Source: Alkalicella caledoniensis (GTDB taxonomy: Bacteria > Bacillota > Proteinivoracia > Proteinivoracales > Proteinivoracaceae). Taken from it: DNA of 64,000 nt. Location: contig NZ_CP058559.1 of NCBI RefSeq assembly GCF_014467015.1, positions 620,001 through 684,000 of the forward strand. Reading direction: 5' to 3'. How positions within the stretch are numbered: the stretch's first letter is position 1; every line of letters starts with the position of its first letter. This document shows, one piece after another, positions 2,848 through 33,130 of this stretch. The notes beneath the pieces were generated by a model. That model worked only from the letters and a program-made list of their open reading frames with translations. It was not told the DNA's origin and did not search any database. A program made the translations under genes and the position numbers.

Positions 2848-4122
2848 TTATTTCACTATAACAGAAACTCCATCTGGTATAACAGTAATTGAAGCTTTTT
2901 CTCCCTTTATTTCAAGAGCCTTTTGTAAGGCTTCATCAAAGGTAAACGAATGTTTTATGTGCATTGATTCAATCATATTTTTATCACACTGATCTGTTAC
3001 GATAAATACTGTATGTTTCTCTAGTATCCTAGCTAATATTTGGAACTCCCATTGATCAGGAAGTGTCTTATCCCTTGGGATTTGTAATACCTTTTTAGTA
3101 ACTTCATGGGGGCTAGACGCTTCTGCCATATATTTATAAAAAGCTTCGCCTCCATGACCGTCGTTACAGGCTGAAAGGATAATTATTACTCCTCCTTCAG
3201 CACAACTTGCTTCAGCTGCCGTCATACCTTTAACTGTCTGATATATATTTTGGTCAAGGGGATAACCACCGTTTGAAGTTACCACTATATCCGCAGGTTT
3301 TTTCTCAACAACTGCAAGTTCAGTAACAAATTCGCACCCTTTTTCGTGGGCTTTTTGTGGATCCCCGGCAACTGCATGGATAATCTTTTTATCTGCGTCT
3401 ATAATTACGTTTAGTATGAACGCCAGTTTAGCTTGTTCAGCTGCAAAAATCATATCTTTATGAATAGGGTTATTGTTCAATATCCCTGTTCTAGCATGAG
3501 GGCTTGCTATAAACTCAGAACAGTGGTTAGCAAGAACTGTTTCTTTACCTGCTACCCCAGGAAGGACGCTTTTTCTTCCTCCAGAAAAACCTGCAAAAAA
3601 GTGCGGTTCGATAAATCCTTCTGAAATAAGCAGTTCTGTTTCCATCACCAATTTATTTAGCCACAATTCTCCACCAGAAGGTAAGATGCCAACATACTTC
3701 ATGTCGTGCTTATCCCAACTCACATGGTTTACTAATTTCTCATTATTTACTATTTCTTCACCAAACTTGTTTAACATTTCCTGATGGGTTGTGGCCCTAT
3801 GAAACCCAGTAGCGATAAGTATAGTAATATCAATATTTGGGTTAACCTTACGTATTCTTCTAAGAACTATTGGCAAAGTTACTTTACTGGGCACAGGTCT
3901 TGTATGGTCTGAAGTAATAATGACCATATTCTTCTTACCTTTGACCAACTCTTCTAAACTTTCACTATCAATAGGGTTATCTAAAGCCCTCTCAACTAGT
4001 TGCTCTTCATTTACATCTGGGACAAAATGATGGGCCTTTGATTCTAACACTGCAATTAGGTTTTCATCTGGAATCTCAGCATCCACAAACGTTGTAGAAT
4101 AAGGAATCTTTATTTTTGCCAT
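2848..4122 (-). CDS. larA: Nickel-dependent lactate racemase LarA family protein
   Basis: A 424-residue DUF2088/LarA protein, the usual length. Visible motifs are [15 protein letters not shown] near residue 90 and [17 protein letters not shown] near residue 180, which carry the conserved histidine and lysine region of the family. LarA interconverts L- and D-lactate using a nickel pincer cofactor made by LarB, LarC and LarE; none of these lie in the window. The gene sits between the regulator and etfB. An operator identical in core to the one before the permease lies 37 bp upstream of its start, so this gene probably begins its own regulated transcript. Other LarA homologues racemise other 2-hydroxy acids, so substrate is inferred from the lactate context. 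Confidence 0.87.
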
Positions 4123-17164: not shown

Positions 17165-18376
17165 ATGTCAACAGTGGCTTACATCCAAGCTGATATGGTA
17201 ATGAACCCACTTTTGTTAAAGGAGATTAACAAAAAACCAATTATTGAACATACCATTGAACGCTTGCTACAAATAACAGATATAAATAGTATAGCAATGT
17301 GCTTACATAAGAATTCATCAAATTTAGCCCTAGGATACTTACAAAATAAGTACCCAACCTTAACTCTAAACTTTTCTAAAGAACAAAATGCAGGGAAAAG
17401 AATGATAGAAATGTTTAAGTCAACTAGGCCCAGTTCAATAGTAAGGGTTACAGGTGACCAAATATTTCTGGATATTGCAGAAACTCAGAGTATGATTGAT
17501 GACTTCAAAGTTAATCAATGTGATATCTCCTACCACGATCTAAATGATGGACTTCTTCCTGAAATATTAAGTTACCACGGTTTAGAGAAATGTCAAATAC
17601 CTATAGGAAAGTACCACAGATTTCTTAAATACATAAATAACAACCCCCATATTCTCAGCATTAAAAAGAGAGAGCATGGCTCTCAAACACCCTTCTTTAG
17701 ATTCTTTATAAGAAATGACCGTGAGTTTCATGTGGCTAGTCAAATTTTGCAATATAATCTAGATTATAACAGATTTAATGTATATGGGGAATTACTATTC
17801 GGTGACACGGGCCTATATGATGATGGGTGGTTTGAAACTTTTGAAAGTAAGCAATCAACGAAAACTAGTGGAGAACTTGTACCATGGATGACTTATCCTG
17901 CTATTGATTTTCTTACACCAAGGGTAAAGAAAGAATTCTCAGTATTTGAGTACGGCTGTGGAGCTGGTACCATATGGTGGTCTAAAAGGGTTGGGAAGGT
18001 CACTGCCTGTGAACATACCTCCCACTGGGCTACACATGTTAGGGGGGTAGCTCCAGAAAATGTAACTATAATACATGTGGATTTGTCTAAAGGTGATAAC
18101 TATGCAAGGCAAGTGGAGATATCTAATGAAAACTATCATGTAATTGTTATAGATAGTAGGGATAGGATCAACTGTGCTAAAAGCGCAGTTAAGTCCCTAA
18201 CCGACGATGGAATAATTATTTGGGATGACAGCCAACGTGAAAGGGATGACGAAGGTAAGGAGTTTATTTTATCCCAAGGTTTTAGAAAGCTTGAATTTAA
18301 GGGTATGGGTCCCATTGTTAAAGATAAAAATGAAACAACTATTTTTTATAGGGATGGAAATTGTTTGGGAATATAA
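17165..18376 (+). CDS. SpsF-like nucleotidyltransferase fused to a methyltransferase-like domain
   Basis: A 403-residue two-domain protein. Residues 1-230 resemble cytidylyltransferase/SpsF-type proteins (AYIQADMVMNPLLLKEINKKPI and IVRVTGDQIFLD). Residues 250-400 look like a SAM-dependent methyltransferase fold, with the glycine motif FEYGCGAGTIWWSKRV near 258 and the acidic strand VIVIDSRDR near 325. It may modify a cell-surface or spore-coat polysaccharide, but no other glycan genes are adjacent. The start follows AAGGAG. A diverged duplicate of its last 75 codons lies 11 kb away at 29384-29611. Confidence 0.72.
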   Translation: MSTVAYIQADMVMNPLLLKEINKKPIIEHTIERLLQITDINSIAMCLHKNSSNLALGYLQNKYPTLTLNFSKEQNAGKRMIEMFKSTRPSSIVRVTGDQIFLDIAETQSMIDDFKVNQCDISYHDLNDGLLPEILSYHGLEKCQIPIGKYHRFLKYINNNPHILSIKKREHGSQTPFFRFFIRNDREFHVASQILQYNLDYNRFNVYGELLFGDTGLYDDGWFETFESKQSTKTSGELVPWMTYPAIDFLTPRVKKEFSVFEYGCGAGTIWWSKRVGKVTACEHTSHWATHVRGVAPENVTIIHVDLSKGDNYARQVEISNENYHVIVIDSRDRINCAKSAVKSLTDDGIIIWDDSQRERDDEGKEFILSQGFRKLEFKGMGPIVKDKNETTIFYRDGNCLGI

Positions 18377-18520
18377 AATATGCCGAAGGCTAGTAATTTG
18401 CCTTCGACACAGGTGGCTAGCGCCAGTATGTATTGAACTTGAACTTTCTTTTTGTAAGTTTAGGGACTACACAGCTCACCTGCCCCAAAAATCAAAGACG
18501 GTAAATTGAGTGGCCCTCTA

Positions 18521-18548
18521 AGCTGAAGACCATTATCGGTCTTCAGCT
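18521..18548. terminator. Bidirectional terminator overlapping the S41 peptidase stop
   Basis: AGCTGAAGACC (18521-18531) pairs with GGTCTTCAGCT (18538-18548) around a 6-nt loop. The loop and right arm encode the last codons and stop of the leftward S41 peptidase gene. TTTTATTA follows on the plus strand, so it probably serves the rightward gene. Confidence 0.65.
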
Positions 18549-19960
18549 TTTATTACCTCTATGGCTTTTTTCATTGCTAGGTCTGTATTGTTTATGTAGT
18601 CTTCTAAAGTGTACTTTATCGGATAGTGGGGATAAAGGGCATCTTCATCTGCTCCTAAACCCTTGCCCTTGGGCCTGACCCACTGGGTGTGGGATATAAA
18701 GTACCTAATTTTAGAGTTGGTCAGTTGGAATCTCAGTATGTCTCCGTAACTATTTGGGGCATTGCCTGTGGGCTCACCTATTATGGTTCCCAGTTCATTG
18801 TCCTTAATGATCACTGCAAACCAGTTTGCAGAGGAAAATGTTCCATTGTCTATAAGGGCATATATTTTTCCATCAAATATAAGTTCTTCTTCAGCTCTAA
18901 TATTATTAACTAAGTTAGGTTCTGCTTTGCTGTTTCTAGATCCAGTACCCCTTTGTTCTTTAGACGCAGTTGAAGTTCTCCCTTTACCTCCAAAGGAAAG
19001 ATATTCATCTATATCAATATATCTAATAAACTCATTTATTACCCTAGAGTCTCCCCCTGGGTTTCCCCTGATATCTATAACTATATTGTTGATACCATTG
19101 TCTTTTACATCTTTGAACATCGTTTCCATAAATGCTATATACTGATCATCATATACACATCGTGTCAGTAAGAAGTAGCATAAATCGTTTTCAGCATCTA
19201 AAAAATAAGAGTATCCTCTACTTACATATCGAACTGGATAAAATCTTTGATTATCAACTGGCCTTGTATAAGTATCGTTAAAGTTCAAAGATGTTTTTAT
19301 TACTTCTCCATATCGTTTCAGTTCAACTTCTATATTTTTAACATCATCAATTGTTGCACCTAATTGGGTTAATGTAGACTCCCATAATGCAAAATCTTTC
19401 ACTCTATCATTTATCCAATAAATGTTCTCTGCAGGAACCCTTCTTTTAGCTACTTCGTAAATTTCTTGCATAGTTATGCCACCAAGTGAAATAAGTTTAT
19501 CTCCTGCCATCACATCTTTTCCATCTAGCACATAAAACTCGTTATCTACATATGCAATTTCCATGGGAAGTTTTAGATCCCCTTGAAATACATTTGCAAC
19601 TGATGTATGGCCATCTTCCAGTTTAATTATGATTTCCGAAACAACTATGGTGAATTCTCCTACTGTCATTGGATGTTCTATTAGTACCTCTGCCTGCTGA
19701 AATGCTTTTTCAACTTCGTTAGGCAACCCATTGATGGTCTTAGGGTGAACATCTACCATATCCTTTTTTAACTGTGCCAAATCTTCTTTCATTTGTTCAC
19801 TGGAAATTATAGTATCGAAACTAAGGGTCTCTTCAAAAACTGGACGTGTCCCCTCGGTACCTCCTTTATAGGAATTGCTGTATATAAAAGCAATGACAAC
19901 ACCTACTAATAAAATCACAGATATTATTGAAACAATTTTTACTTTCCTATTTGCAAACAT
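18533..19960 (-). CDS. Membrane-anchored S41 family peptidase
   Basis: A 475-residue protein with an N-terminal membrane anchor (residues 8-28) and an extracellular S41 (C-terminal processing/tricorn-type) protease domain. The domain shows IVIDIRGNPGGDSRVINEF near residue 292, the nucleophile region NGTFSSANWFAV near 370 and IIGEPTGNAPNSYGD near 390, where a basic catalytic partner would usually follow. No PDZ domain is obvious. Substrate unknown; relatives without PDZ often act on short peptides. The start follows AGGGAGGGG. Confidence 0.85.
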   Translation of the reverse strand: MFANRKVKIVSIISVILLVGVVIAFIYSNSYKGGTEGTRPVFEETLSFDTIISSEQMKEDLAQLKKDMVDVHPKTINGLPNEVEKAFQQAEVLIEHPMTVGEFTIVVSEIIIKLEDGHTSVANVFQGDLKLPMEIAYVDNEFYVLDGKDVMAGDKLISLGGITMQEIYEVAKRRVPAENIYWINDRVKDFALWESTLTQLGATIDDVKNIEVELKRYGEVIKTSLNFNDTYTRPVDNQRFYPVRYVSRGYSYFLDAENDLCYFLLTRCVYDDQYIAFMETMFKDVKDNGINNIVIDIRGNPGGDSRVINEFIRYIDIDEYLSFGGKGRTSTASKEQRGTGSRNSKAEPNLVNNIRAEEELIFDGKIYALIDNGTFSSANWFAVIIKDNELGTIIGEPTGNAPNSYGDILRFQLTNSKIRYFISHTQWVRPKGKGLGADEDALYPHYPIKYTLEDYINNTDLAMKKAIEVIKAEDR

Positions 19961-20221: not shown

Positions 20222-21955
20222 CTACACTACAAAAATTGAAGCCATCTGAGGATAAGATAGTACGAAATGGTAGCCCAAAATCCATATAATCATTCCAATT
20301 AGTATGTTCATTGACGAGCTGGGCCTTAATTTTCCTAGCTTTAGTACCAATACCGAAACAGCTAGCATAATTATACCAGCTCCCATTTCAAATCCTTCCC
20401 AAACATCTATCACACTGTAAGTTGAATCTTGTTGTGGTATGAAATTCCACAAGATAAGTATGACTAACATAAACAGCGTATAGGGCCTTTCCTGTAGTAA
20501 GAACAATATGCCTATCTTATTTAATACAGCTAAAATCACAAGAATAACTAGTATCACAACACTGCTGCTTATTACTCCAATTATACTCCCCAACATACTC
20601 ATGATTACTAGATATAGAAATTGACTATAGGGTTTTTCACTGGTATAAGGATTCACTCCAAGATTTATCCATAATGAACTTGGTGGTTTCTCAATATTGT
20701 TTCTATAGTCTATGACAAAGTTAGACCTATGCAACCTTGTAAACCAAAAAGCATGTAAATATCCTTCATTGTCAGGAATTATTTGAGGATATTTTGTATA
20801 ACTCCTATTCCATGTAATTCTCTGTTGATTTATTTTTATGTTCCCCTCACTATCAATCTTTGTAAAGTACCCTTCCATGCTTTCATTCCTACTATCTTCC
20901 CAAGCAACATAAATATTATCATCAAAATCGATGTTTATTGTTGGAAAATGGGCTATACCCCATTCATTTGTTAAAATTGATTCACTTACTATGGATCCAT
21001 TATAACTAATTTTTATGTATTTTACATCCATTACTAAATTTCCTGTTAGGCCAGGACCACTTGTATGATGTGTAAACACTATATGATAGTTTCCCATTGA
21101 GTCAATCACAACCTGTGGACCTATATCTCCATAGGCATAAGTTGTCACTGAGGTCCCTAGTATATGTGGAACAGATGCAATATTTTTGCTTCCCACATTA
21201 CCTTCATCGTCCACTTCCACTAAAATCAAGCTCTCATGATCCTTGAAAAACACTCTAGTAACAGAATCATTTCCCCTGTGGAATTGAAATTGTGGTATTA
21301 CTATACTTCTGTTGGCACTACTATTGAAGTTATATATTTCGGTAGATTGAACCAATTTCCCCTCTAAACTTCTCCGTTCAAAAAATAAATAAGGTGCTCG
21401 ATTGGATATGCCTCCGTATACTATGTTCAATTCATCGTTGATAATGTTTACTCCTATGTTTGGAATAGACTGAAATCTAAGTGCTCCTTCGGGTTCCTCT
21501 ATTTTCTCTTTAGATATAATACTACCTTCTAGACTAAACACATATAGAAACAACCTATACACATTATCTTCCAATTCACTTGTTATTAAATAGACTTTAT
21601 CATCAAAAATTACATAGTCAGTACTAGATTCCCTACTAGATGTAATAGTAGAGATAGTATTTTCCATTTGACCTATAACACCCCAGCCAATTTTATATTC
21701 AAATAATGATTCTTCATTTTCCTCCCACCACCCATAGAAATACTTGTCCTTATACTCCTTCAATCTTAATGGTTTATTGCTATTTACATAATCAATTTCT
21801 TGATAGTGAGAAGGTAATGACCAATCAAACCGCCCAAGATATTCCCACTGATATTCATTGGAACCATAGGCATCAACAGCATAAATAGCATTTCCAATGG
21901 TGTTATGGAACAAGATGAAAAAAAATAAGAAAATCAGCACTATTTTCTTAAGCAT
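20222..21955 (-). CDS. Secreted propeller-like protein with C-terminal membrane domain
   Basis: A 577-residue protein I cannot name. Residues 1-27 are a signal peptide. Residues 35-430 are rich in strands, with recurring motifs such as NIYVAWEDSRNESMEGYF, YHIVFTHHTSGPG and YLHAFWFTRLHRSNF that look like blades of a sialidase-type beta propeller. The final 140 residues hold four hydrophobic helices. It overlaps the permease gene by 8 bp and has its ribosome site inside it, so the two are coupled. It is the last gene of the minus-strand cluster that begins with the radical SAM gene. A role as extracellular partner of the permease is inference. Confidence 0.7.
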   Translation of the reverse strand: MLKKIVLIFLFFFILFHNTIGNAIYAVDAYGSNEYQWEYLGRFDWSLPSHYQEIDYVNSNKPLRLKEYKDKYFYGWWEENEESLFEYKIGWGVIGQMENTISTITSSRESSTDYVIFDDKVYLITSELEDNVYRLFLYVFSLEGSIISKEKIEEPEGALRFQSIPNIGVNIINDELNIVYGGISNRAPYLFFERRSLEGKLVQSTEIYNFNSSANRSIVIPQFQFHRGNDSVTRVFFKDHESLILVEVDDEGNVGSKNIASVPHILGTSVTTYAYGDIGPQVVIDSMGNYHIVFTHHTSGPGLTGNLVMDVKYIKISYNGSIVSESILTNEWGIAHFPTINIDFDDNIYVAWEDSRNESMEGYFTKIDSEGNIKINQQRITWNRSYTKYPQIIPDNEGYLHAFWFTRLHRSNFVIDYRNNIEKPPSSLWINLGVNPYTSEKPYSQFLYLVIMSMLGSIIGVISSSVVILVILVILAVLNKIGILFLLQERPYTLFMLVILILWNFIPQQDSTYSVIDVWEGFEMGAGIIMLAVSVLVLKLGKLRPSSSMNILIGMIIWILGYHFVLSYPQMASIFVV

Positions 21956-23030
21956 TTTCCTTCACCTCCATGGCTCCACGTAAGGCTTCCCCAATAATAT
22001 TTATGCTTATAATTAAGGCAAAAAGAAATCCCCCTGAAAATAGAACAGCCCACGGCGCCCTTCTAAAAGCATAGCCTTGATAAGATCTAAACAAGTTACC
22101 TAAATACTGTGCCCACCCACTGCCTCCAAAACCTAAAAATGCAAGCATAGCGTCATACATTATTACCTGGCTCAGAAAATTAGTTGTCTGAAGTATAATA
22201 CTTGAAAGTGAGTTCGGTAACAAATGCCCAAATATAATCTCAAACTCACTGCATCCAGTGGCTTTCGCCTGTTGAACAAATTCCCTTTCCCTTAAAGAAA
22301 AAAATTCACCCCTTATTATTTTCGCAAGGGTACAGCCCCCATAAATAGCAAACATCCATATTCTGATATCTTTACTAGGGAAAACCATAAGTACAAGCAT
22401 AAACAGCATGATAGGGGCAAATGCTAGTATACTCTCCACAATAATCATTAATACCCTATCAATAACCCCTTTAAAGTGCCCCGCCATAGCACCCAAAGCA
22501 ATACCTATGATTATACTATAAAGGGCTGCCGTTATGGGGGTTTCAATAACACTTCTTGCAAGGAATGCTAAATTAGTCAATATGTCCTGCCCAGCTGGGG
22601 AAACACCTAGTGGATGGGTTCTAGATGGTGTGGAATCAAAATCCGAAGATCTAACAACATAGTCGCGATATATTCTTTCAAATGGTTCATATTTTAAAAA
22701 AACTCCTGGTTTTATTGCCATACTTAAAAAAATAAACAGGATGATAAATGCAATCCACACTGCTTTGTAACTGAAAAATTTTTTAATAAACAACTTACTT
22801 TTTCTCGTTATAGTACCCCTATCCACTCCAATATTGGCCCTTACAGTTTTGAATAAGTTTATTTTTTCTTTAACAAAATAATGAATCAGAACAAACACCA
22901 ATCCACAAATTGCTAACAAAAGCATAGCAGACTGAAAATCTGCAACATAAGCCAGTAGCTTATTTCCCCCTAAGAAATAAGCAGTCAGAAAAACTATACC
23001 CAACAAATATGGCAACAAAATTAAGTACAT
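21948..23030 (-). CDS. Orphan OppC/DppC-like ABC transporter permease
   Basis: A 360-residue permease with the binding-protein-dependent transport motif EFVQQAKATGCSEFEIIFGH followed by LLPNSL near residue 255 (the EAA loop that contacts an ATPase). The stretch HPLGVSPAGQDILT near residue 137 is typical of the DppC/OppC subfamily. It carries two extra N-terminal helices in the first 60 residues compared with usual DppC proteins. No DppB, ATPase or binding protein is adjacent, which is unusual. Instead it lies between the ABC exporter gene and the propeller protein it overlaps. Its function may depend on that partner or on ATPases elsewhere. Confidence 0.85.
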   Translation of the reverse strand: MYLILLPYLLGIVFLTAYFLGGNKLLAYVADFQSAMLLLAICGLVFVLIHYFVKEKINLFKTVRANIGVDRGTITRKSKLFIKKFFSYKAVWIAFIILFIFLSMAIKPGVFLKYEPFERIYRDYVVRSSDFDSTPSRTHPLGVSPAGQDILTNLAFLARSVIETPITAALYSIIIGIALGAMAGHFKGVIDRVLMIIVESILAFAPIMLFMLVLMVFPSKDIRIWMFAIYGGCTLAKIIRGEFFSLREREFVQQAKATGCSEFEIIFGHLLPNSLSSIILQTTNFLSQVIMYDAMLAFLGFGGSGWAQYLGNLFRSYQGYAFRRAPWAVLFSGGFLFALIISINIIGEALRGAMEVKENA

Positions 23031-23069: not shown

Positions 23070-24665
23070 TTACATAGCCTTTATCTCTATGATTTCGTCA
23101 GCTATATCCTTAAATCCTTCATCATGAGTTATAATTATAGTTATACGATCATTCTTACTATCAAGAAGTATCTTTTTAAGCTTTGCGATACTAACTGTAT
23201 CTAATGCCGAGGTTGGTTCATCTAGAATTAAAATCTTAGGTTTCTTTAGAAGAGCTCTAATAAGGGAAATCTTTAACTTTTCTCCCCCTGAAACATTCAT
23301 CACAGTGTCTTCACAATCAAACAGATTTTTATTAACGTTTAACGCAGTTAATAGCACCCCTAATTCTTCTTTAAAATGTTCTTTACCTGTACCTGATGGC
23401 ATATAAGTTAATTTAGGTTCTTGCTCACTAACTCCAATCAGCTCACTTCTGGTACTATATAGGTCAATCTTTTTTATGTCTAAAGAATTATACAATATAG
23501 TTCCACTAAATTCTTCAACATAAATTCCTAAAATTAGGTTTATTAAGGTGCTTTTTCCAACACCATTTTCTCCTGCTATGCAATATATATTTCCTCGATT
23601 AAAAACATAACTAAATTTCTTTATTTCTGAATTAGAGCCCTTATATCCAAAACTTATATTATTTAGTTCTATATTCTCAATATTCTCTAACAGTACACTG
23701 CCATTTTTCTCTGGGTTAATGGATAAAATGTCCAAAATTCTATCCATACTCACCTTAGCATTTTGGTATTGCTCACCAACGGAGTAAAGAAATCCTAAAT
23801 TGTCCAAAATCATTATAAAATAATTGCTCATTATGGTGAACTGACCAATTTTTAGGTTACCAGAAATTATCTCCTTTCCCCCATAGTAAAATAAAATCAC
23901 TTGTACTACAACTTTTATCAATGTTTTATTACTAGCAAATTGTAATGATGTCCTTGTATATTTTAGTAGTGATGTTAACACATTGGATAGCTTTTTATCT
24001 ATATATTCATTGTATTCTTCAAATGCACCTTTAATTTTAATTGATTTCATATTCTCTAAAAAATGCTGCGTCTTGGAAAACGCATCATTCTCTTTTTCTT
24101 TCATATCATAATTTAAAGTATAAATTTTGTCCTTGAAAAAAAAATAACTCATAATATATATAGGTATTAAAGGCAAAATAATTATCGTTAGCATATCATT
24201 TATTCTAAAGCAAATTACCAAAAGTAAAACTATGTTTAGCAAATTAATTACTACATTAAAGCTATTCCCAAGTATAAATGCTACAATAACATTAACATCT
24301 GAATTTATTCTATGGTTGATATATCCAGGTTCTTTGGATTCGAGGTTACTAATAGGGATAAATGAAATATGCTTTAATATAAATAGTTTCAAGTCATTTG
24401 ATATATGTGTTTTGAGCTTAACGAAAATATAGCTCTGGACACAGTTTGCAAGTATATTCCCTAACCCTAAGATAAGTAAGAGAATTGAAAACACTTTTAT
24501 TGAATTAATATCTATATGTTCTACTAGAGAATCTATATAACTTCCAGTAAAGTAAGGAAGTGAAATTCCTAATAACTTAGCTAAAAAACTAAGTATTACA
24601 TAAAAAATAATCAACTTACCATAGCTCTTTATATAGGGGAACAATAGATTAACAAATGACGCCAC
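23070..24665 (-). CDS. ABC exporter (fused membrane and ATPase domains), likely peptide exporter
   Basis: A 531-residue half-transporter. Residues 1-300 form a six-helix ABC transmembrane domain. The ATPase domain has Walker A GENGVGKSTLINLIL near residue 365, signature VSGGEKLKISLIRAL near 455, Walker B PKILILDEPTSALD near 475 and the His switch IIITHDEGF. No C39 peptidase domain is present. It starts with GTG at 24665 after AGAAGGTG, 83 bp downstream of the cysteine-rich peptide gene and separated from it only by a large hairpin. By position it should export the mature peptide. Confidence 0.87.
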   Translation of the reverse strand: MASFVNLLFPYIKSYGKLIIFYVILSFLAKLLGISLPYFTGSYIDSLVEHIDINSIKVFSILLLILGLGNILANCVQSYIFVKLKTHISNDLKLFILKHISFIPISNLESKEPGYINHRINSDVNVIVAFILGNSFNVVINLLNIVLLLVICFRINDMLTIIILPLIPIYIMSYFFFKDKIYTLNYDMKEKENDAFSKTQHFLENMKSIKIKGAFEEYNEYIDKKLSNVLTSLLKYTRTSLQFASNKTLIKVVVQVILFYYGGKEIISGNLKIGQFTIMSNYFIMILDNLGFLYSVGEQYQNAKVSMDRILDILSINPEKNGSVLLENIENIELNNISFGYKGSNSEIKKFSYVFNRGNIYCIAGENGVGKSTLINLILGIYVEEFSGTILYNSLDIKKIDLYSTRSELIGVSEQEPKLTYMPSGTGKEHFKEELGVLLTALNVNKNLFDCEDTVMNVSGGEKLKISLIRALLKKPKILILDEPTSALDTVSIAKLKKILLDSKNDRITIIITHDEGFKDIADEIIEIKAM

Positions 24666-24695: not shown

Positions 24696-24745
24696 AAATG
24701 ACATGTTAAATCCAAGTTTTGAAACTTGGATTTAACATGTCATTT
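24696..24745 (-). terminator. Perfect 24-bp inverted repeat between precursor and exporter genes
   Basis: Bases 24696-24719 are exactly complementary to 24722-24745 with only TG between. The hairpin starts 3 bp after the peptide stop codon. On the minus strand it is followed by AGAAGATTTTACT rather than a clean T run, so it may be a partial terminator or an RNA-stabilising 3' end that raises precursor mRNA over exporter mRNA. Confidence 0.7.
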
Positions 24746-24748
24746 TAC

Positions 24749-24895
24749 TTAAAATTCAATATGAAAACCATCCCAACATTGATTTATGTCTGGGCACGGT
24801 GGCATATGCCCGAAACATGGCACTATATAACCATCGCATCCTAAATGGCAGTTCACTGAATTATTTGGATCACTTCCGTTTATTAGGTATTTCAT
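24749..24895 (-). CDS. Cysteine-rich RiPP precursor peptide (candidate)
   Basis: A 48-codon gene, MKYLINGSDP at the start and QCWDGFHIEF at the end, with five cysteines at residues 16, 20, 27, 34 and 40. The ribosome site is GGGGGTG, about 5 bases before ATG. It lies between a radical SAM/SPASM maturase gene (upstream, 67 bp) and an ABC exporter gene (downstream), the classic arrangement for ranthipeptide or sactipeptide-type natural products. The spacing of Cys with neighbouring Gly, Pro and aromatic residues suits thioether formation. There is no GG leader cleavage motif. I know of no named family with this core. Product and activity are inference. Confidence 0.75.
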   Translation of the reverse strand: MKYLINGSDPNNSVNCHLGCDGYIVPCFGHMPPCPDINQCWDGFHIEF

Positions 24896-24962
24896 ACTCT
24901 CACCCCCTTTCCAATCCCACTAGTTTTTTCTTGTCAAATACACTATAGAAAATGAAACTCAC

Positions 24963-25466
24963 TTAATTACTCACTATTATTTCTTCTTTTAATTTATCAA
25001 GGACAATCTGCTCTATGTGATCTCGTAAATTATACTTGTATCTCGAACATCGATCTATAATTTCACTTTCTCTTCTTTTTGGACAACCACCCATACAAAT
25101 TGGGATAATTTTACATTTAGCACACTCTGAATCTTGGGTAGGGTCGTATAACAAATATTTAGTCAACTCTTTCAAGTCATTTTTATTTTTATCGACCAAA
25201 TTACTTATAACATATCCTTTTATACCTATATCAGACCAACATTTATATATGTCTCCTTTAGGATCTATTACAATTGCAGAATTCGAATCTGCTCCACACC
25301 TGTTACCTAATAATGCAGGATACATATGACGCATATTTTTACTAAAACCACTTCTTACAAGCTCTTGTTGAAATTCAAAAGAGTATTTGCAAAAAGTATT
25401 AAAGTCTAAACATTTATTTATTGAATAGCAGTCATTAGTAGGCTCGATATAACCTAGATACCCCTA
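24963..25466 (-). pseudogene. Radical SAM/SPASM maturase, C-terminal part (cut by IS)
   Basis: This frame encodes the C-terminal part of the maturase whose N-terminus is at 27307-28121. From the IS edge it reads YLGYIEPTNDCYSINKCLDF and runs unbroken to the stop. It carries the SPASM-type auxiliary cluster ligands: NRCGADSNSAIVIDPKGDIYK then CWSDIG, and CAKCKIIPICMGGCPKRRE near the end. An in-frame ATG at 25334 is unlikely to make an active enzyme. The insertion separates it from the SAM-binding half, so the maturase should be non-functional unless the element is lost. Confidence 0.85.
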
Positions 25467-25538
25467 TGTGTTAGGATAGTTGTCGTAAGAAATTGATGTA
25501 TAATAGAAAATACGACAATGAACCTAAGGAGAGAGAAT

Positions 25539-26033
25539 ATGCCTAGAACTAGCAAGTATAGTCAAGATTTTATAGATACAGTTTTAAAGAGGCTTGAGCC
25601 CCCTTCATCAGAGACAGTGAATGATTTATCAGAAGAGCTAGGGATACCAAGCTCAACTATCTATACATGGGTAAAAAGGAGCAATGGTAGTTTAAGAAAG
25701 CAAAAGCCCAAGGATAAGTGGACATCCAAAGATAAGTTTCATGTTGTTTTAGAGACAGCCACTCTATCGGAACTGCAACTAGCAGAGTATTGTAGGAGAA
25801 AAGGCCTTTATGTAGAGGAAGTTAAAGCCTGGAAAGATCAGTGTCTTAATGCTAATAATGAACCTGTGGAAGATACTAAAAAGATAAAGAATGAGCTTAA
25901 AGAGGAAAAACTAAAAGCTAAAGAGCTAGAAAAAGAACTTCGTATGAAAGAAAAGGCATTAGCTGAAACGGCTGCTTTACTGGTACTTAGAAAAAAGGCA
26001 AACGCGATTTGGGGGGACCCCGAGGAAGACTGA
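25539..26033 (+). CDS. IS3-like transposase OrfA
   Basis: A 164-residue OrfA beginning MPRTSKYSQDF after AAGGAG; an upstream ATG at 25518 precedes that site and is less likely. Residues 1-50 form a helix-turn-helix (SEELGIPSSTIYTWVKR), and the C-terminal third is a charged coiled coil (ELKEEKLKAKELEKELRMKE), the leucine-zipper-like part used for oligomerisation. The frame contains A AAA AAG at 25991-25997, where ribosomes can shift -1 into orfB to make the full transposase. Confidence 0.87.
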   Translation: MPRTSKYSQDFIDTVLKRLEPPSSETVNDLSEELGIPSSTIYTWVKRSNGSLRKQKPKDKWTSKDKFHVVLETATLSELQLAEYCRRKGLYVEEVKAWKDQCLNANNEPVEDTKKIKNELKEEKLKAKELEKELRMKEKALAETAALLVLRKKANAIWGDPEED

Positions 26034-27097
26034 TCAGTGACTCAGATCGTGTAGACGCAGTAAAGCTGATCAAAGAGGCAGTAGATAGTGGTGCTAGATT
26101 AAGACCAGCCTGTGCAGAATTGAATATAAGCGACCGGACATATCAGCGCTGGTCTAAGGGTAATGAAGTAAAAAAAGATCAACGTCCGTTGGCGCAAAGG
26201 CCTGTTCCCAAAAACAAGTTAAGCGATGAAGAACGCTCCATAATACTAGATACGCTAAATAGCCCAGAGTACGCTGACCTACCTCCCTCTCAGATTGTAC
26301 CGAAGTTAGCTAACGAGGGTAAATACCTTGCTTCCGAATCGACAATTTACCGAATATTGAGAGAAGAAAAAATGAATGCACATAGATCTAAAACTAAAGA
26401 GCCTATAAAAAAGGAAGCTCCTACACATATTGCGACAGCTCCAAATAAGGTATGGACATGGGACATAACCTGGTTGAATGCTTCTGTAAAAGGTGCTTAC
26501 TTTAAGCTATATTTAATCTTGGATATGTTTAGTAGAATGATAGTGGCGTACGAAGTTTGGGAGTCAGAAAAAGCAGAATATGCAGAGCAACTAGTAAGAA
26601 AAGCAACCTTGTCACAAGGCATAGCTGGAAGACCCCTGGTCCTTCATTCTGATAACGGTAGCCCAATGAAAGCTGCTACATTTCAAGCAACCCTAGAAAA
26701 GCTTGGTATCCAAAGCTCATTTTCTAGACCTAGGGTAAGTAATGATAATCCGTACTCTGAATCACTTTTTAAAACGATGAAGTATGTTCCGAAGTACCCT
26801 ACTAAAGGGTTTCATTCAATAGATGAAGCAAGGAAATGGGTAAGAAAATTTGTAAGTTGGTACAACAACGAGCATTTGCATAGTGGTATTAAGTTTATAA
26901 CACCCTATCAGAGACATTACGGTCTCGATAAGGCAATAATGGCTAAACGTATCGAAGCTTATAAACTAGCTCAACGAAAGCATCCTGAAAGGTGGGCTAG
27001 ACATATCAGAAATTGGGAGTTGCCAGAGTTTGTGGCATTAAATCCTATTAAGGATGAAGAAGCAGTGGAACTTATTAGTCAGGAAGAGCAAGTGTAA
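26009..27097 (+). CDS. IS3-like transposase OrfB, DDE integrase
   Basis: OrfB in the -1 frame relative to orfA, opening with a weak TTG and overlapping it by 25 bp; expression as an OrfAB fusion through the slip site at 25991-25997 is likely. The rve integrase core has the three acidic residues in VWTWDITWLNAS (near 150), LVLHSDNGSPMK (near 213) and SNDNPYSESLFKTMK (near 248). Upstream is an HTH_21-type region ending MNAHRS. The frame is intact, so the element may still move. Confidence 0.9.
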   Translation: MGGPRGRLISDSDRVDAVKLIKEAVDSGARLRPACAELNISDRTYQRWSKGNEVKKDQRPLAQRPVPKNKLSDEERSIILDTLNSPEYADLPPSQIVPKLANEGKYLASESTIYRILREEKMNAHRSKTKEPIKKEAPTHIATAPNKVWTWDITWLNASVKGAYFKLYLILDMFSRMIVAYEVWESEKAEYAEQLVRKATLSQGIAGRPLVLHSDNGSPMKAATFQATLEKLGIQSSFSRPRVSNDNPYSESLFKTMKYVPKYPTKGFHSIDEARKWVRKFVSWYNNEHLHSGIKFITPYQRHYGLDKAIMAKRIEAYKLAQRKHPERWARHIRNWELPEFVALNPIKDEEAVELISQEEQV

Positions 27098-27179
27098 TCA
27101 CAAGACTAGATTTGGCGAAGCGTATCATTTACTTGGAGAGGCCCACATGGTAGCCTGTTGAAAAGGCAGGACTTATTAT

Positions 27180-28121
27180 TTATGGGCATGCCTTTAAGGA
27201 CCTATACCTTGTGGGCAGAGGCTCCATGTCAATGACAAATCGGGTCCAGAACTCATAATTATTTTTATTAAAATGCGACAACTTTATTGACAAACACCGA
27301 TACACATAAACTTTATTTTTTAATCCATATTCATCCAATGCTTCTAAGAGTTTATCAATTGAATTTATATTGTCTTTGTCTGCGTTTACCCTAAGGGCTG
27401 TTTGAGGAATAATATTTACGTTTTCAGCAAGATTTGATAATATTTGTTTAAAAGTTGGCCCACCCCCACTAAGCGGTCGTCTTTTATCATGTTCATTCTC
27501 TTCACCATCAATAGTTACTTGTATATTTTTGATGTCGAGTTCTTTAAGTCTAGAACAAGTATAGTTATTAAGATTATATCCATTAGTTATCATTGATGCA
27601 GAATAATTTATGTTTTTATCACGACATATTTGCTTAGTTTTTTCTGTAATATTTTCGATTATATTGAGGGCAAGTAAAGGTTCTCCTCCATACCACGTAA
27701 TTTTAACTCCATCGTAATACTTTGCTTGTTGCTCTATAAACTTAATAACTGAATCTTGAACTTCTTTACTCATTATCCCGTCTCTATAGCCTTTTTCAAA
27801 ACAATAAATACAGTCAAAATTACAGTTCATTGTTGGAGCAATTGTAATCTGCCATATTCTAGATGAATATCTACTTCTTAGCATGTTAAGCCTAATTAAT
27901 TCGAGTTCATCTGTTTGATTATCTATCATAAATCCACCCTTTATTAGACTACTAATAAGTTCTTCATCTTTAATGGGAATACTCTCTTCAACAAATCTAT
28001 TAAAAATATCATATTTTTCCTTTTCCATAATTGCTAGTGCATTGCTTCGAGAATTATAGGCTATAACTTTACTACAATCATTTGGAAAATCATAAAAGAA
28101 ATTATAGTCAGATGATTTCAA
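27180..28121 (-). pseudogene. Radical SAM maturase, N-terminal part (cut by IS)
   Basis: Starts with TTG at 28121 after GGAGGTG. Residues 1-85 form the variable N-domain. The radical SAM cluster motif CNFDCIYC (CxxxCxxC) is in APTMNCNFDCIYCFEKGY near residue 97, followed by WYGGEPLL near 144 and strands of the partial TIM barrel to GLKNKVY near residue 272. After 27306 the frame reads into the insertion sequence and stops at 27180, adding about 42 foreign codons. Together with 24963-25466 it makes a SPASM-type peptide maturase of roughly 430 residues that would install thioether or other crosslinks in the cysteine-rich peptide. Confidence 0.87.
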
Positions 28122-28148: not shown

Positions 28149-28289
28149 TTATATAAATTCATCATACATATGCCATTCATAAATATCACTTTCTTTTTCC
28201 GCTAAAATCACAGTTGTATTACTCCTACTAAAGCTAAATATACTAATGAAAATTATCAATAGTAATACCACTATTTTTGTATTTTTCAA
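28149..28289 (-). CDS. Short secreted peptide, candidate signalling peptide
   Basis: A 46-codon frame from a TTG at 28289 preceded by AAGGGGGG. It has a basic start (MKNTK), a strong hydrophobic helix VVLLLIIFISIFSF, a small-residue region with an ALA-like site (VILAEKES) and a short acidic-aromatic tail ending YEWHMYDEFI. This is the layout of Phr/PapR/NprX-type exported pro-peptides. It lies between the divergent RRNPP-like regulator gene and the radical SAM gene, 27 bp before the latter. No family can be named from sequence, and the non-ATG start lowers certainty. Confidence 0.55.
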   Translation of the reverse strand: MKNTKIVVLLLIIFISIFSFSRSNTTVILAEKESDIYEWHMYDEFI

Positions 28290-28418: not shown

Positions 28419-29309
28419 GTGTATTATAATCTTTTATTATTTGGGGATAAATTTAAGAGTATCAGGGAAAATCTTAAATTAACTAGGGAAATGCTAAGCG
28501 ATTTATCTGGAGTACATGTTGAAACTATCCGAAGAATTGAAAAAGGAGGGGCTAGAATCCCTAAATCTGAAACATTGGAAATACTCTCATTTTTCATGAA
28601 GGAAGATCTAAATTTGATATTATTCGATTACCGCATAGATGATTATTCTCTGTTCAAATCTATTAGAAATAGTCTAGAGAATAAATTAAATGAAGGAAAT
28701 TTTGATTTATCTACGGAAATAATTGAATTAAAAAAAATGATAAATCCAAGTATTAATAACTATAACCAAGTTTTTATTAAACAGTTAATTCTTCTTGCCG
28801 AAGGAATTATTTCATATAGAAAAAAAGACTACAATAATTCTTTTGAAAAATTTAATATGGCCCTTACTCAAAATACACCTTTTTTTGATGTGAATGATTA
28901 TAAAGGTTATATCTATTCACCTATGGAAATTCGGATATTAATGAATTTAGCATTTGTTCTAAATAAGCTTGGAAAGACAAATCTCTATCTAGAGATTTTG
29001 GAGTTTTGTATAACTAACCAGAATTCTACAGATATCATTGATAAATTATGTCATAATTTATCAAGCGCATTCCTACGGACAGGAGAGTACGAAAAAGCAT
29101 TAAAATATTCCAAAATGGGAGTCGAGTATTGTGAAGAAAAACTAAAAGTTAATGGCTTGCATATACTATACTACGGCAAAGGCCTAGCAGAATATTACTT
29201 GAACAACAATGAGTACTTAAAATCCATTAACAAGGCAATTTTTCTTTGTGACCTTTTCCGCAAAGACGATTTTAAAAAAATAATCCTTAACAGCACTTGT
29301 AGTACGTAA
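28419..29309 (+). CDS. RRNPP-like regulator (HTH plus TPR-like repeats)
   Basis: A roughly 296-residue cytosolic regulator. I chose the GTG at 28419, 5 bases after GGGGAGGG, over an upstream TTG. Residues 10-65 are an XRE-type helix-turn-helix (SIRENLKLTREMLSDLSGVHVE). The remaining 230 residues are helical hairpins of TPR type, e.g. FEKFNMALTQN and LRTGEYEKALKYSKMGVEYCE. Size and architecture fit PlcR/Rgg/NprR receptors that bind imported peptide pheromones. It is divergent from a small secreted-peptide gene 129 bp away and the radical SAM cluster, the natural target. Ligand binding is inference. Confidence 0.8.
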   Translation: MYYNLLLFGDKFKSIRENLKLTREMLSDLSGVHVETIRRIEKGGARIPKSETLEILSFFMKEDLNLILFDYRIDDYSLFKSIRNSLENKLNEGNFDLSTEIIELKKMINPSINNYNQVFIKQLILLAEGIISYRKKDYNNSFEKFNMALTQNTPFFDVNDYKGYIYSPMEIRILMNLAFVLNKLGKTNLYLEILEFCITNQNSTDIIDKLCHNLSSAFLRTGEYEKALKYSKMGVEYCEEKLKVNGLHILYYGKGLAEYYLNNNEYLKSINKAIFLCDLFRKDDFKKIILNSTCST

Positions 29310-29383
29310 TTCTAAGATTTCTGTTCAATCCCTAAGTTCTAAAAATCTTGCCTGAGTAGGGTTATTCTTTAATAGCTTAATTT

Positions 29384-29611
29384 ATAGATAGTAGAGATAG
29401 GGTCAATTGTGCTAAGAATGCAGTTAAGTGTCTTACAGAAGATGGAGTGATAATCTGGGGTGACAGTCAGAGGGAGCAAGATGAGGAGGGTAAAGAGTTT
29501 ATTTTATCCCAAGGTTTTAGAAAAATTGAATTTAAGGGTATGGGTCCTATTGTAAAGGACAAAAATGAGACTACTATTTTTTATCGGGATGGAAATTGTT
29601 TAGGAATATAA
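29384..29611 (+). pseudogene. Duplicated C-terminal fragment of the nucleotidyltransferase-methyltransferase gene
   Basis: An open stretch of 75 codons plus stop, beginning IDSRDRVNCAKNAV and ending YRDGNCLGI, matching the last 75 residues of the protein at 17165-18376 with 9 differences by eye. It has no start codon or upstream part. A hairpin terminator follows. It is a remnant of a second full-length gene or of a partial duplication, left beside the decayed ABC exporter genes. Confidence 0.85.
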
Positions 29612-29615
29612 AAAC

Positions 29616-29652: not shown

Positions 29653-31379
29653 TTATGCTATTTTATCTTCTTTAAATTGTAAGTTGTAAAGATTGGCGTA
29701 GATTCCCCCTAGTTCTATGAGTTCTTGATGTGTTCCTTGTTCTGCTATGGCCCCTTTATCCATGACCAGTATCCTATCTGCCTTTTCTATGGTCGATAGT
29801 CTGTGGGCTATTACTATGGATGTTTTTTCTCCCATTAGATCATCCAATGCCGATTGTACCAGTGCTTCTGACTCGTTATCTAAGGCAGAGGTCGCTTCAT
29901 CTAGGAGCAATATCTCGGCGTTTTTTATTATGGCTCTGGCTATTGCTATACGTTGTTTTTGTCCTCCTGATAGGAATGTTCCCCTTTCACCTACAAGTGT
30001 ATTGTAGCCTTCTTCTAGGTTTTCTATAAAGTCATGGGCATTTGCCTGTTTCGCAGCTTCTACTATCTGCTTTGTACTTGCCCCTGTTTTTCCAAAAGAG
30101 ATATTTTCTTGAACTGTCCCACTAAACAAGTAAGGATCTTGGGGTACAAAGGCTGCCAAATCTCTTATTTCCTCCATTGTATACTTACTTGCAGGTTTAC
30201 CCATTATGGAGACACAACCTGATTGTGGATAGTTGAAACCAAGGATGAGTTTAAATAATGTGGATTTTCCTCCACCACTGGGGCCTACAATAGCCACCGT
30301 CTCACCTTTTTTTACCGATAGACTCAAGTCATTGATAACCTTTATGTCGTCTTCATATTGAAAATTAACATTGTACAGGCTTAGTACTGCATTGTCGTAG
30401 CATCCTTCTTCAGATAAGGGATAGTATTTTGGTTCTTCCTTCTTGTCTAGGAGTTCACTTATTCTATCAAACCCTGCAAGGGATGTCTGTAGTTGGTTAA
30501 TAAAGGTTCCTAGTTGGTTAAACAATTGTGAAACTCCATTTTGTACTTGTACTAATGCTATTATGGTACCTAGCTCAATATATCCCTTGGACATAAACAA
30601 TCCACTGACTGCAATAAAACCCACAAAAGAGCTGGTCCATGCAAAAGTGTTTAAACCCTGGTAAGCGGCGTTAATCCTAACCCTTTTTTCAGCTTTACTT
30701 TTAGTTATATCATTAATTTCTTTAAACTTACCAACCATGTAACCACCTATGTTGAACAAACGTATAACATGGGCTCCAGCTAAGATGTCGGAGATCTTTT
30801 CTGTAACTTTACCAAGGGAAGACTGTCATCGCTGGCAACCTTCAATGGTTTTGCAAAACGTGTCATAATGAAAAGCAAAATAATTTGATAACCTATAAGC
30901 CCTAAAGCAAACCTCCAGTCTAGCCATACCATAAATACTGTACAGCCAATTCCATTCAACACTGTCTCACTGACTCGTACCAATTGCTCTTTGTAGGCTG
31001 TTTCAGTTGTTTGAATATCATTTGTAGTTCTAGATATTAAATCTCCACTATGGGAATCATTTAAAGTCGTTTGATCCAATTTAATTAGTTTTTCCAAGGA
31101 TTGTTCCCTTAGACGTGCAGTTGTCTTTAAAGATGCGTAGTTTACTAGGTACATACCTATTGGTGTAATTAGAGCCAAAAAGATAATCAACCCTAAACAT
31201 TTTAGTATGATTGGGAGTATCAAGCTGGAATCATAAACAGCCCTATCGAAAATATCCATAAAAAGAATAGCAATGACGATATTACTCATGGGGTTTGAAA
31301 TAGCCAGCATTAATAATCCAGATAGATATCTACTTTTCTCTTCTTTCAGTAAATTTAACATAATTTTGTATTTTTTCAT
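29653..31379 (-). pseudogene. ABC exporter half-transporter B, frameshifted
   Basis: A 575-residue half-transporter when one missing base is restored. The first part (MKKYKIMLNLLKEEKSRYLS to the helices near residue 180) leaves frame at about 30800-30835, after FAKPLKVASDD. The correct continuation SSLGKVTEKISDILAGAHVI is visible in the next frame and joins MFNIGGYMVGKF. The ATPase domain is complete: Walker A GPSGGGKSTLFKLILGF, signature LSGGQKQRIAIARAI, Walker B ILLLDEATSALD and AHRLST. The offset fits a 1-nt deletion. It abuts the partner gene at 31380. Sequencing error is possible, but both partners carry the same kind of lesion. Confidence 0.82.
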
Positions 31380-33130
31380 CTATGCCACCCCACTTTCTTG
31401 ATCAACATGGGAAAAATCTTTGTTATAGAGTTTTGAATAAAGTCCTTCTTTATCAAGCAATTGTTCATGGGTTCCTTCTTCCACAACAGCTCCACCTTCA
31501 ATAACTAAAATTCTATCAGCATTTTTTATTGTGGATAATCTATGTGCTATAACCATAGTTGTTCTACCTTCCATGGCCTTTTCCAATGCTTGTTGTACCA
31601 TTTGCTCAGATTCAGTATCCAAAGCAGATGTGGCTTCATCAAGGAGTAATAATTTTGCATCCTTTAATATCGCCCTAGCAATTGAAATCCTTTGACGTTG
31701 CCCACCGGAAAGCTTAGCTCCCCTTTCACCTACCATGGTGTCGTATCCATCAGCAAGTTCCATTATAAAATTATGGGCGTTAGCCTTTTGAGACGCTGCA
31801 ATTATTGCTTCCATGCTAAAATTTCTGCCTAAGGTTATATTTTCCTTTATTGTTGTGGGAAAAAGATAGGTGTCTTGGGAAACAACTGCTATTTCCTCTC
31901 GCAAAAAATCTAATTTCCATTTATCAATAGTATTATTAAATAGACTAATTTCCCCCTCATAGGGCTGGTAGAAACCTGTGATCAATTTAAAAATCGTTGA
32001 TTTACCTCCACCACTTGGACCAACCAAAGCTACCTTTTCTCCACAATTTATATGGAAACTTATACCTTGCAATATATCTTTCTCACCATATGCAAATCTA
32101 ACATTATTAAAACTAAGGACATTCTCACTTTCGAAATCTAATTTTTCGCCAGTTTGACGTTCTGATACAATATCTACTATTTCATAAATTCTATCTAATC
32201 CAGCTCCCGCTGCTTTATAGCTACCTATATGATTAGGAAGCTGAGCCAGGGGCCAAGATAGTTGATTTAGTAAGTTTATAAAGGCAAGTAGACCTCCAAC
32301 AGACATACTACCTCGATTAACCAGTAGACTACCCAGTCCAAAAGACACTATAAATGGTAAGAATGTTAAAAAGCCAGATATTCCTGCAAGGATTGCTCTT
32401 CTTAGTGCTATAACTCTACCCCTTTTAACGGATTCATCCACCTGACCTTTGAAACTCTCTAAAATCCTATCCTTCAAATTGAATGATTTAACAATTTGAA
32501 TTCCACCTAATATATCTTGATTCGCTTTGTTGATGTTTGCAAGCTCTTCCTGTAGGGCTTTACTATAGTTAGAAATTGGTTGAGTTATTTTCATTGTTAA
32601 ATACATCATTATAGGTATAAATACTAAACTAGCCAAGGTCAGTTGCCAGTTTAAGTACGTCAAATAAGCAAGTGTAGCCACTGCCATCAGTGGCCTTAAT
32701 ATAAGAAAATAGCCATCCCAATCTAAAAAGCGTTTTACAAGTTGTATATCATTGGTAAGCTTAGACAAGTTGTCACCACTATGCATTGTATCAAGTTTAG
32801 GTATGGGTAACTTTGTAAACTTTTCAGTTGCTTTATATCTAAGGTCAGCTATGGCCCTTTCACTTAAATAGCCCACAACAAAATCCTTAAAATAAATGGT
32901 AGTTGCAAATAGTATAATGACTGATCCAAACCTAAAGCAATTTTCCCATACCCTTCTCCACCTTGAAGGCCAATATCTATCCCATTTTTAAATAAATCAG
33001 CCATGTATATAGTCAGGAAAATCTCAAGGACCATAAATATAGGTGTAAGGATAACAAATATCCTCAATTCTTTGTTCTCTAAAAATAACCGCCTCAGCGG
33101 ATTTTTAATTTTACTTTCCATTTCACCCAC
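31380..33130 (-). pseudogene. ABC exporter half-transporter A, frameshifted
   Basis: A 583-residue half-transporter when one missing base is restored. The N-terminal 80 codons (MGEMESKIKNPLRRLFLENK) leave frame near 32925-32950 after GEGYGKIALG. The next frame continues FGSVIILFATTIYFKDFVVG into SERAIADLRYKATEKF. The ATPase domain is complete: Walker A GPSGGGKSTIFKLITGF, signature LSGGQRQRISIARAI, LLLLDEATSALD and AHRLST. With its neighbour it forms a heterodimeric exporter pair like YheH/YheI or LmrC/LmrD, usually for drugs or peptides. The two genes abut (TAG then ATG). Confidence 0.82.

Follow-up and report, generated by a model that had tools for sequence, protein, structure and literature searches.

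The 48-residue open reading frame at positions 24749-24895 of the window (the whole 64,000-nucleotide stretch that was analysed) is likely the precursor of a Clo7bot-like radical SAM RiPP, which would be under a PlcR-type switch and was orphaned by the apparently recent entry of an insertion sequence (IS) into its maturase gene. The earlier note had read the gene as a Cys-rich RiPP precursor of a radical SAM cluster, a reading of gene and type that is supported by the synteny of the maturase, peptide and exporter triad. To it we add that the precursor is an orphan in this genome, that it belongs to a sister group of Clo7bot and that a putative signalling module of PlcR type accompanies the cluster.

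The precursor ORF lies on the minus strand, starts with ATG and has 48 codons, with cysteines at positions 16, 20, 27, 34 and 40; on re-examination of the sequence, the length, strand, coordinates and cysteine positions first reported all proved exact. The strong ribosome site that had been claimed is indeed present, as AAGGGGGTGA (24900-24909, minus strand), 4 nt 5' of the start codon. The encoded peptide begins MKYLINGSDPNNSVNCHLGC, and alignment with its relatives suggests a leader of about residues 1-15 (MKYLINGSDPNNSVN) and a Cys-rich core from C16 onwards. On its flanks are the C-terminal SPASM fragment of the maturase, which ends at 24963, and an ABC exporter gene, which starts at 24665. 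The position between a SPASM maturase and an exporter was therefore correctly described, but the maturase gene is interrupted by an IS, and what adjoins the precursor is one half of this disrupted gene. The ORF is genuine, very probably that of a RiPP precursor; its composition alone is not compelling, and it is position together with homology that raises it above chance.

The same triad of maturase, Cys-rich peptide and exporter holds in orthologous clusters. The N-terminal part of the window maturase matched its orthologues at 52% in G002, a genome of the same family, at 44% in G063 and at 40-46% in G313, and at 39-42% identity the window exporter resembles those that accompany the maturases in G002, G063 and Tissierella. 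Genes for short peptides, with strong ribosome sites, adjoin the maturase in G002 (peptides beginning MTYLIEGNSLVDVLCSQFEC and MTYLIEGNSMEELC), in G063 (three of the form MQML[VI]EGTELEHDTECFINC and one beginning MRMLVEGTELEHGTECFINC) and in G313 (beginning MRFIFNASENADTECTRYC); adjacent peptides were also present in Clostridium hydrogeniformans, Tissierella and others. The window peptide follows the plan of these relatives, a short leader of the pattern M-x-[YFM]-[LI]-x-x-[GA] and then the core: the leaders beside orthologous maturases read MTYLIEGNS, MQMLVEGTE and MRFIFNAS, and that of the window reads MKYLINGSD. A CX3C motif opens the core of the window peptide and is found in the G063 and G313 peptides as well.

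Since the core of the window peptide has five cysteines versus 8-10 in most of its closest relatives, and pairwise identity with them is 21-29%, it is leader, position and Cys content that carry the case. A direct peptide search of 150 related genomes yielded no relative beyond chance (best other match, E 0.005) and was unproductive because the core is too variable. Scanning the genome contigs with a single protein likewise found nothing, whereas an alignment-based scan succeeded. Co-conservation with the maturase, a test named beforehand, was seen in most orthologues but not in all, as no Cys-rich neighbour of the maturase was found in L063, whose maturase is close, or in G354/L065. The co-occurrence is thus incomplete rather than absolute: by the criteria used, 28 of 50 related maturases adjoin a Cys-rich ORF versus 26 of 159 other large genes at the same loci, and a Cys-rich ORF with the leader pattern adjoins 22 of the 50 versus 10 of the 159, in counts that ignore kinship and with a pattern set after part of the peptides had been seen.

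The peptide had also been thought short enough to be missed by gene callers. Such peptides are not inherently missed, however, as similar ones are annotated at the Paraclostridium ctpM locus. Current family models fail to detect the precursor group, so that clusters of this clade have probably been annotated too rarely, and the leader pattern provides a means of finding further clusters of the group.

Regarding the class of the product, a radical SAM/SPASM maturase gene, here split by an IS, lies beside a Cys-rich precursor, as is usual for ranthipeptides. In ranthipeptides a thioether joins the Cys sulfur to a non-alpha (beta or gamma) carbon, and in sactipeptides to the alpha carbon. SPASM maturases with Cys-rich precursors are common to both classes and sequence does not separate them, so that a sactipeptide with alpha-carbon thioethers has to be weighed. 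We regard it as unlikely, since the curated maturase models nearest to ours are Clo7bot, TIGR04463, CefB and PapB-like ones rather than AlbA-like, and the nearest solved structure to the maturase is 5wgg, which we take to be the SCIFF maturase CteB.

The assignment to a family within the ranthipeptides was examined with curated models and a tree. No NCBIfam model (E<=10) and no Pfam model (E<=1) matched the precursor, among them the Clo7bot model TIGR04333, whose cut-off of 31 bits was exceeded by a Paraclostridium control peptide (39.1 bits). The searches for Clo7bot and SCIFF precursors that had been proposed were thus carried out, and the peptide matches neither. As far as curated models go, the statement that it matches no family is correct, but its leader is of a Clo7bot-like style that is widespread. 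SCIFF is further disfavoured by the five cysteines and by TIGR03974, which gave 66.6 bits on the N-terminal part of the maturase versus a cut-off of 425. The best NCBIfam model for both maturase fragments and for the intact orthologues was TIGR04334, with about 211-213 bits for the N-terminal part, about 89-108 bits for the C-terminal part, and 337 and 316 bits for the orthologues, versus a cut-off of 600. A maximum-likelihood tree placed the window maturase within a supported clade of 17 rows (97/94), apart from the annotated Clo7bot maturase, which belonged to another clade of 9 rows (100/99). These scores below cut-off, together with the separate clade, indicate that the group is a sister of Clo7bot that falls outside the curated definition and probably works in a similar way.

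That the cluster is a true Clo7bot member (TIGR04333/TIGR04334), missed by the HMM through divergence, appears improbable. The rank of TIGR04334 as best model would fit such membership, as would the Clo7bot leaders MKFIKKP and MKYIVKP, which resemble MKYLING, and the recurrent CX3C early in the core; but a precursor without a TIGR04333 match even at the permissive threshold, orthologous maturases far below the TIGR04334 cut-off and an annotated Clo7bot maturase in a different supported clade already disfavour it.

The maturase assigned to this sister group is encoded on the minus strand in two pieces of one gene. The N-terminal part (27307-28121) contains the radical SAM core (CNFDCIYC) and has a TTG start with GGAGGTG, and the C-terminal SPASM part occupies 24963-25466. 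Between them, on the plus strand at 25467-27306 (ends uncertain by a few bases), lies an IS3-like element of 1840 bp with two transposase ORFs (25518-26033 and 26009-27097). Other copies of the element in the genome are nearly identical to it, two at about 100% and two at 97%, so the insertion looks recent. With its SPASM domain cut off from the radical SAM core, the enzyme has probably lost its activity. No intact paralogue of the maturase was found in the genome, where the next family match reached only 71 bits. The precursor is consequently probably orphaned in this genome and unmodified at present, and the IS-split maturase is a natural knock-out that can be used for strain comparison.

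One could suppose that in this A. caledoniensis strain the peptide acts unmodified, through disulfides or metal binding, or that the split maturase fragments cooperate, since, the insertion aside, the precursor and the two fragments have kept open frames. Open frames are, however, expected without selection after an insertion as recent as the near-identical IS copies suggest, and the C-terminal fragment has internal start codons only; we therefore hold this very improbable.

As for chance, a first-order Markov simulation that keeps the dinucleotide content of the window gave, per 64 kb, 0.4 short ORFs that are rich in Cys and preceded by a ribosome-like site, versus two observed, the second of which is clearly spurious. 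A leader profile of 7 positions, built from 11 peptides adjoining related maturases with the window peptide left out, placed the window peptide first among 1831 ORF starts (11.8 bits versus 8.2 for the second-ranked). Hence, although the simulation does yield such ORFs with loose ribosome sites and the window itself holds a spurious one, the strong ribosome site, the location between maturase and exporter, the first rank of the leader and the gene order kept by relatives make a short untranslated frame that merely carries some Cys codons the least credible of the alternatives.

Divergently from the maturase, a gene on the plus strand (28419-29309, GTG start) encodes a 296-aa PlcR-type (RRNPP) regulator with HTH and TPR-like regions. 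A profile built from 15 sequences, paralogues and orthologues together, gave a full-length match to PlcR (2qfc; E 1.3e-9). Such a family profile was required to reach PlcR, as phmmer with the single regulator matched only designed TPR proteins; in Pfam, HTH_3 was found at E 9.4e-9 and TPR alone was weak. No relative of the regulator was found in viral contigs. Size and architecture agree with those given for RRNPP receptors, 250-500 aa with HTH and a TPR fold (PMC10075063). Between regulator and maturase lies a small minus-strand ORF (28149-28289; TTG start with AAGGGGGG) encoding a candidate signalling propeptide of 46 aa with the tail ESDIYEWHMYDEFI. Being adjacent, divergent, within 10-100 aa and preceded by a strong ribosome site, it corresponds in position and size to the description of RRNPP propeptides (PMC10075063); its N-terminus has a Lys and a hydrophobic stretch (hydropathy 3.6), a possible secretion signal as judged by hydropathy.

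The arrangement of regulator, small ORF and maturase recurs in G002 and L063; the regulator of the latter, a Clostridiales MAG-2163 cluster, appears frameshifted (L063:4592-5536). Small hydrophobic-leader peptides were found beside PlcR-type regulators at L051:8525-8662, L154:5252-5398, L157:4174-4317, L158:3848-3979, L159:5213-5353, L161:315-500 and L164 (about 3905-4060). The tails of small ORFs beside paralogous regulators are alike: SDIYEWHMYDEFI, DEDYEWFSYTSNL, DDSIEWNALKNGHDL, DDDYEWNSIENEII, DPVIEWHQYNGTNSI, DEDIEWHNIRYDL, present twice in one propeptide, and YEYEWNGTGDQSF, from a frame that would need an ATT start. In the L161 propeptide the tail occurs twice in tandem. An EW pair, in the motif (Y/I)EW, was present in 7 of the 9 small peptides examined (those of L158 and L063 lack it), and their hydrophobic halves are not conserved. 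By the PMC10075063 criteria, and with signal peptides assigned by hydropathy only, this pattern is as would be expected for RRNPP propeptides. An operator palindrome was clear between the divergent genes of L157, L159, L162 and L163; the one expected in the window was not significant.

Regulators of this family also adjoin other kinds of RiPP genes: a YcaO/SagD azole cluster at L158 (G002), a radical SAM gene nearest to geopeptide and CefB models at L164 (G004), and PapB-like radical SAM genes with ABC exporters at L165 and L166 (G384 and G258). RRNPP control of RiPPs is known from the RaS-RiPPs of streptococci (PMC8092268), and RRNPP pairs have been described next to 196 clusters, RiPPs being the commonest (PMC10075063); no EW-tailed peptide group was found in the main texts of the literature searched. 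We give about an even chance to the proposal that a single family of PlcR-type receptors, together with their (D/E)x(Y/I)EW-tailed pheromones, was recruited in this lineage as a quorum switch shared by several RiPP classes, which would comprise Clo7bot-sister radical SAM, YcaO azole, geopeptide-like and PapB-like clusters, the window cluster with its just IS-disrupted maturase included. If the regulator pairs work in this way, synthetic YEW-tail peptides would offer a direct means of activating silent clusters of several RiPP classes in a lineage that has been little studied.

The remaining neighbours of the precursor may contribute to transport and processing. The ABC exporter (23070-24665, minus strand; ABC_membrane and ABC_tran) is without an N-terminal peptidase domain. 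A co-directional S41 peptidase (18533-19960, minus strand) is a possible maturation protease, unproven as such; an S41 gene likewise lies beside a paralogous regulator at L160. The OppC-like, oligopeptide-type permease encoded 39 bp after the exporter gene (21948-23030, minus strand) is a possible, equally unproven pheromone importer. Its gene is overlapped by that of a 577-aa protein without Pfam match (20222-21955). Directly after the precursor stop, a near-perfect hairpin with a 23-bp stem (24696-24745, minus strand; -32.3 kcal/mol, z -8.75, 0/200 shuffles) precedes the exporter gene. It is terminator-like on the opposite strand only and could be an mRNA stabiliser or an attenuator ahead of the exporter gene; a genome-wide repeat was ruled out, as this is its only copy in the genome, and an Rfam search of the region returned no family. 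Around the cluster, a 232-nt direct repeat, 84% identical (18147-18378 and 29382-29613), represents the 3' end of the gene 17165-18376 recurring beyond the far side, so that a partial gene duplication brackets the 11-kb region, as would follow an insertion. Farther on are two ABC exporter genes (29653-31379 and 31380-33130), each in two frames (368+199 and 498+88 aa) and possibly frameshifted.

In an intact cluster such as that of G002, the PlcR-type regulator would sense the small secreted peptide with its YEW-type tail at high density and, with it, start transcription in the divergent direction. The leader (MKYLINGS in the window) would then be recognised by the SPASM maturase, which would install thioether crosslinks at core cysteines, and the product would leave the cell through the ABC exporter. 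In the window, this pathway would end with a precursor that is probably left unmodified.

Four known systems invite comparison. Clo7bot (TIGR04333/TIGR04334), of which the literature searched made no mention, likewise has an ABC exporter and several short peptides rich in Cys next to a SPASM maturase, as at the ctpM locus of Paraclostridium bifermentans (NZ_CP094934.1), with leaders that open M-K-[FY]-[IL] and CX3C close to the core start. It differs in a precursor model that misses the window peptide, in a maturase model, TIGR04334, of whose cut-off the maturases of our group reach about half, in their separate clade in the tree, in a leader that ends in KP rather than G, and in the PlcR-type regulator pair beside the window cluster. 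PapB-type ranthipeptides and SCIFF share the SPASM maturase and Cys-rich precursor, but the window peptide is without CX3D repeats and has five cysteines rather than six, and the PapB and SCIFF models stay below cut-off. The streptococcal RaS-RiPPs under Rgg/SHP (PMC8092268, PMC13361665) likewise join a radical SAM RiPP cluster to a regulator of RRNPP type with a short peptide for signalling, which in our cluster is a candidate; there, however, the pair is Rgg with SHP, whereas here the regulator is PlcR-like and the propeptide is longer, with a hydrophobic leader and an EW tail, and the peptide and maturase families are not the same. Finally, PlcR-PapR of the Bacillus cereus group resembles our pair in the full-length PlcR profile match and in a small propeptide, here putatively exported, with a C-terminal signal, but the sequence similarity is distant only, a (D/E)x(Y/I)EW tail takes the place of PapR, and the targets here would include RiPP clusters.
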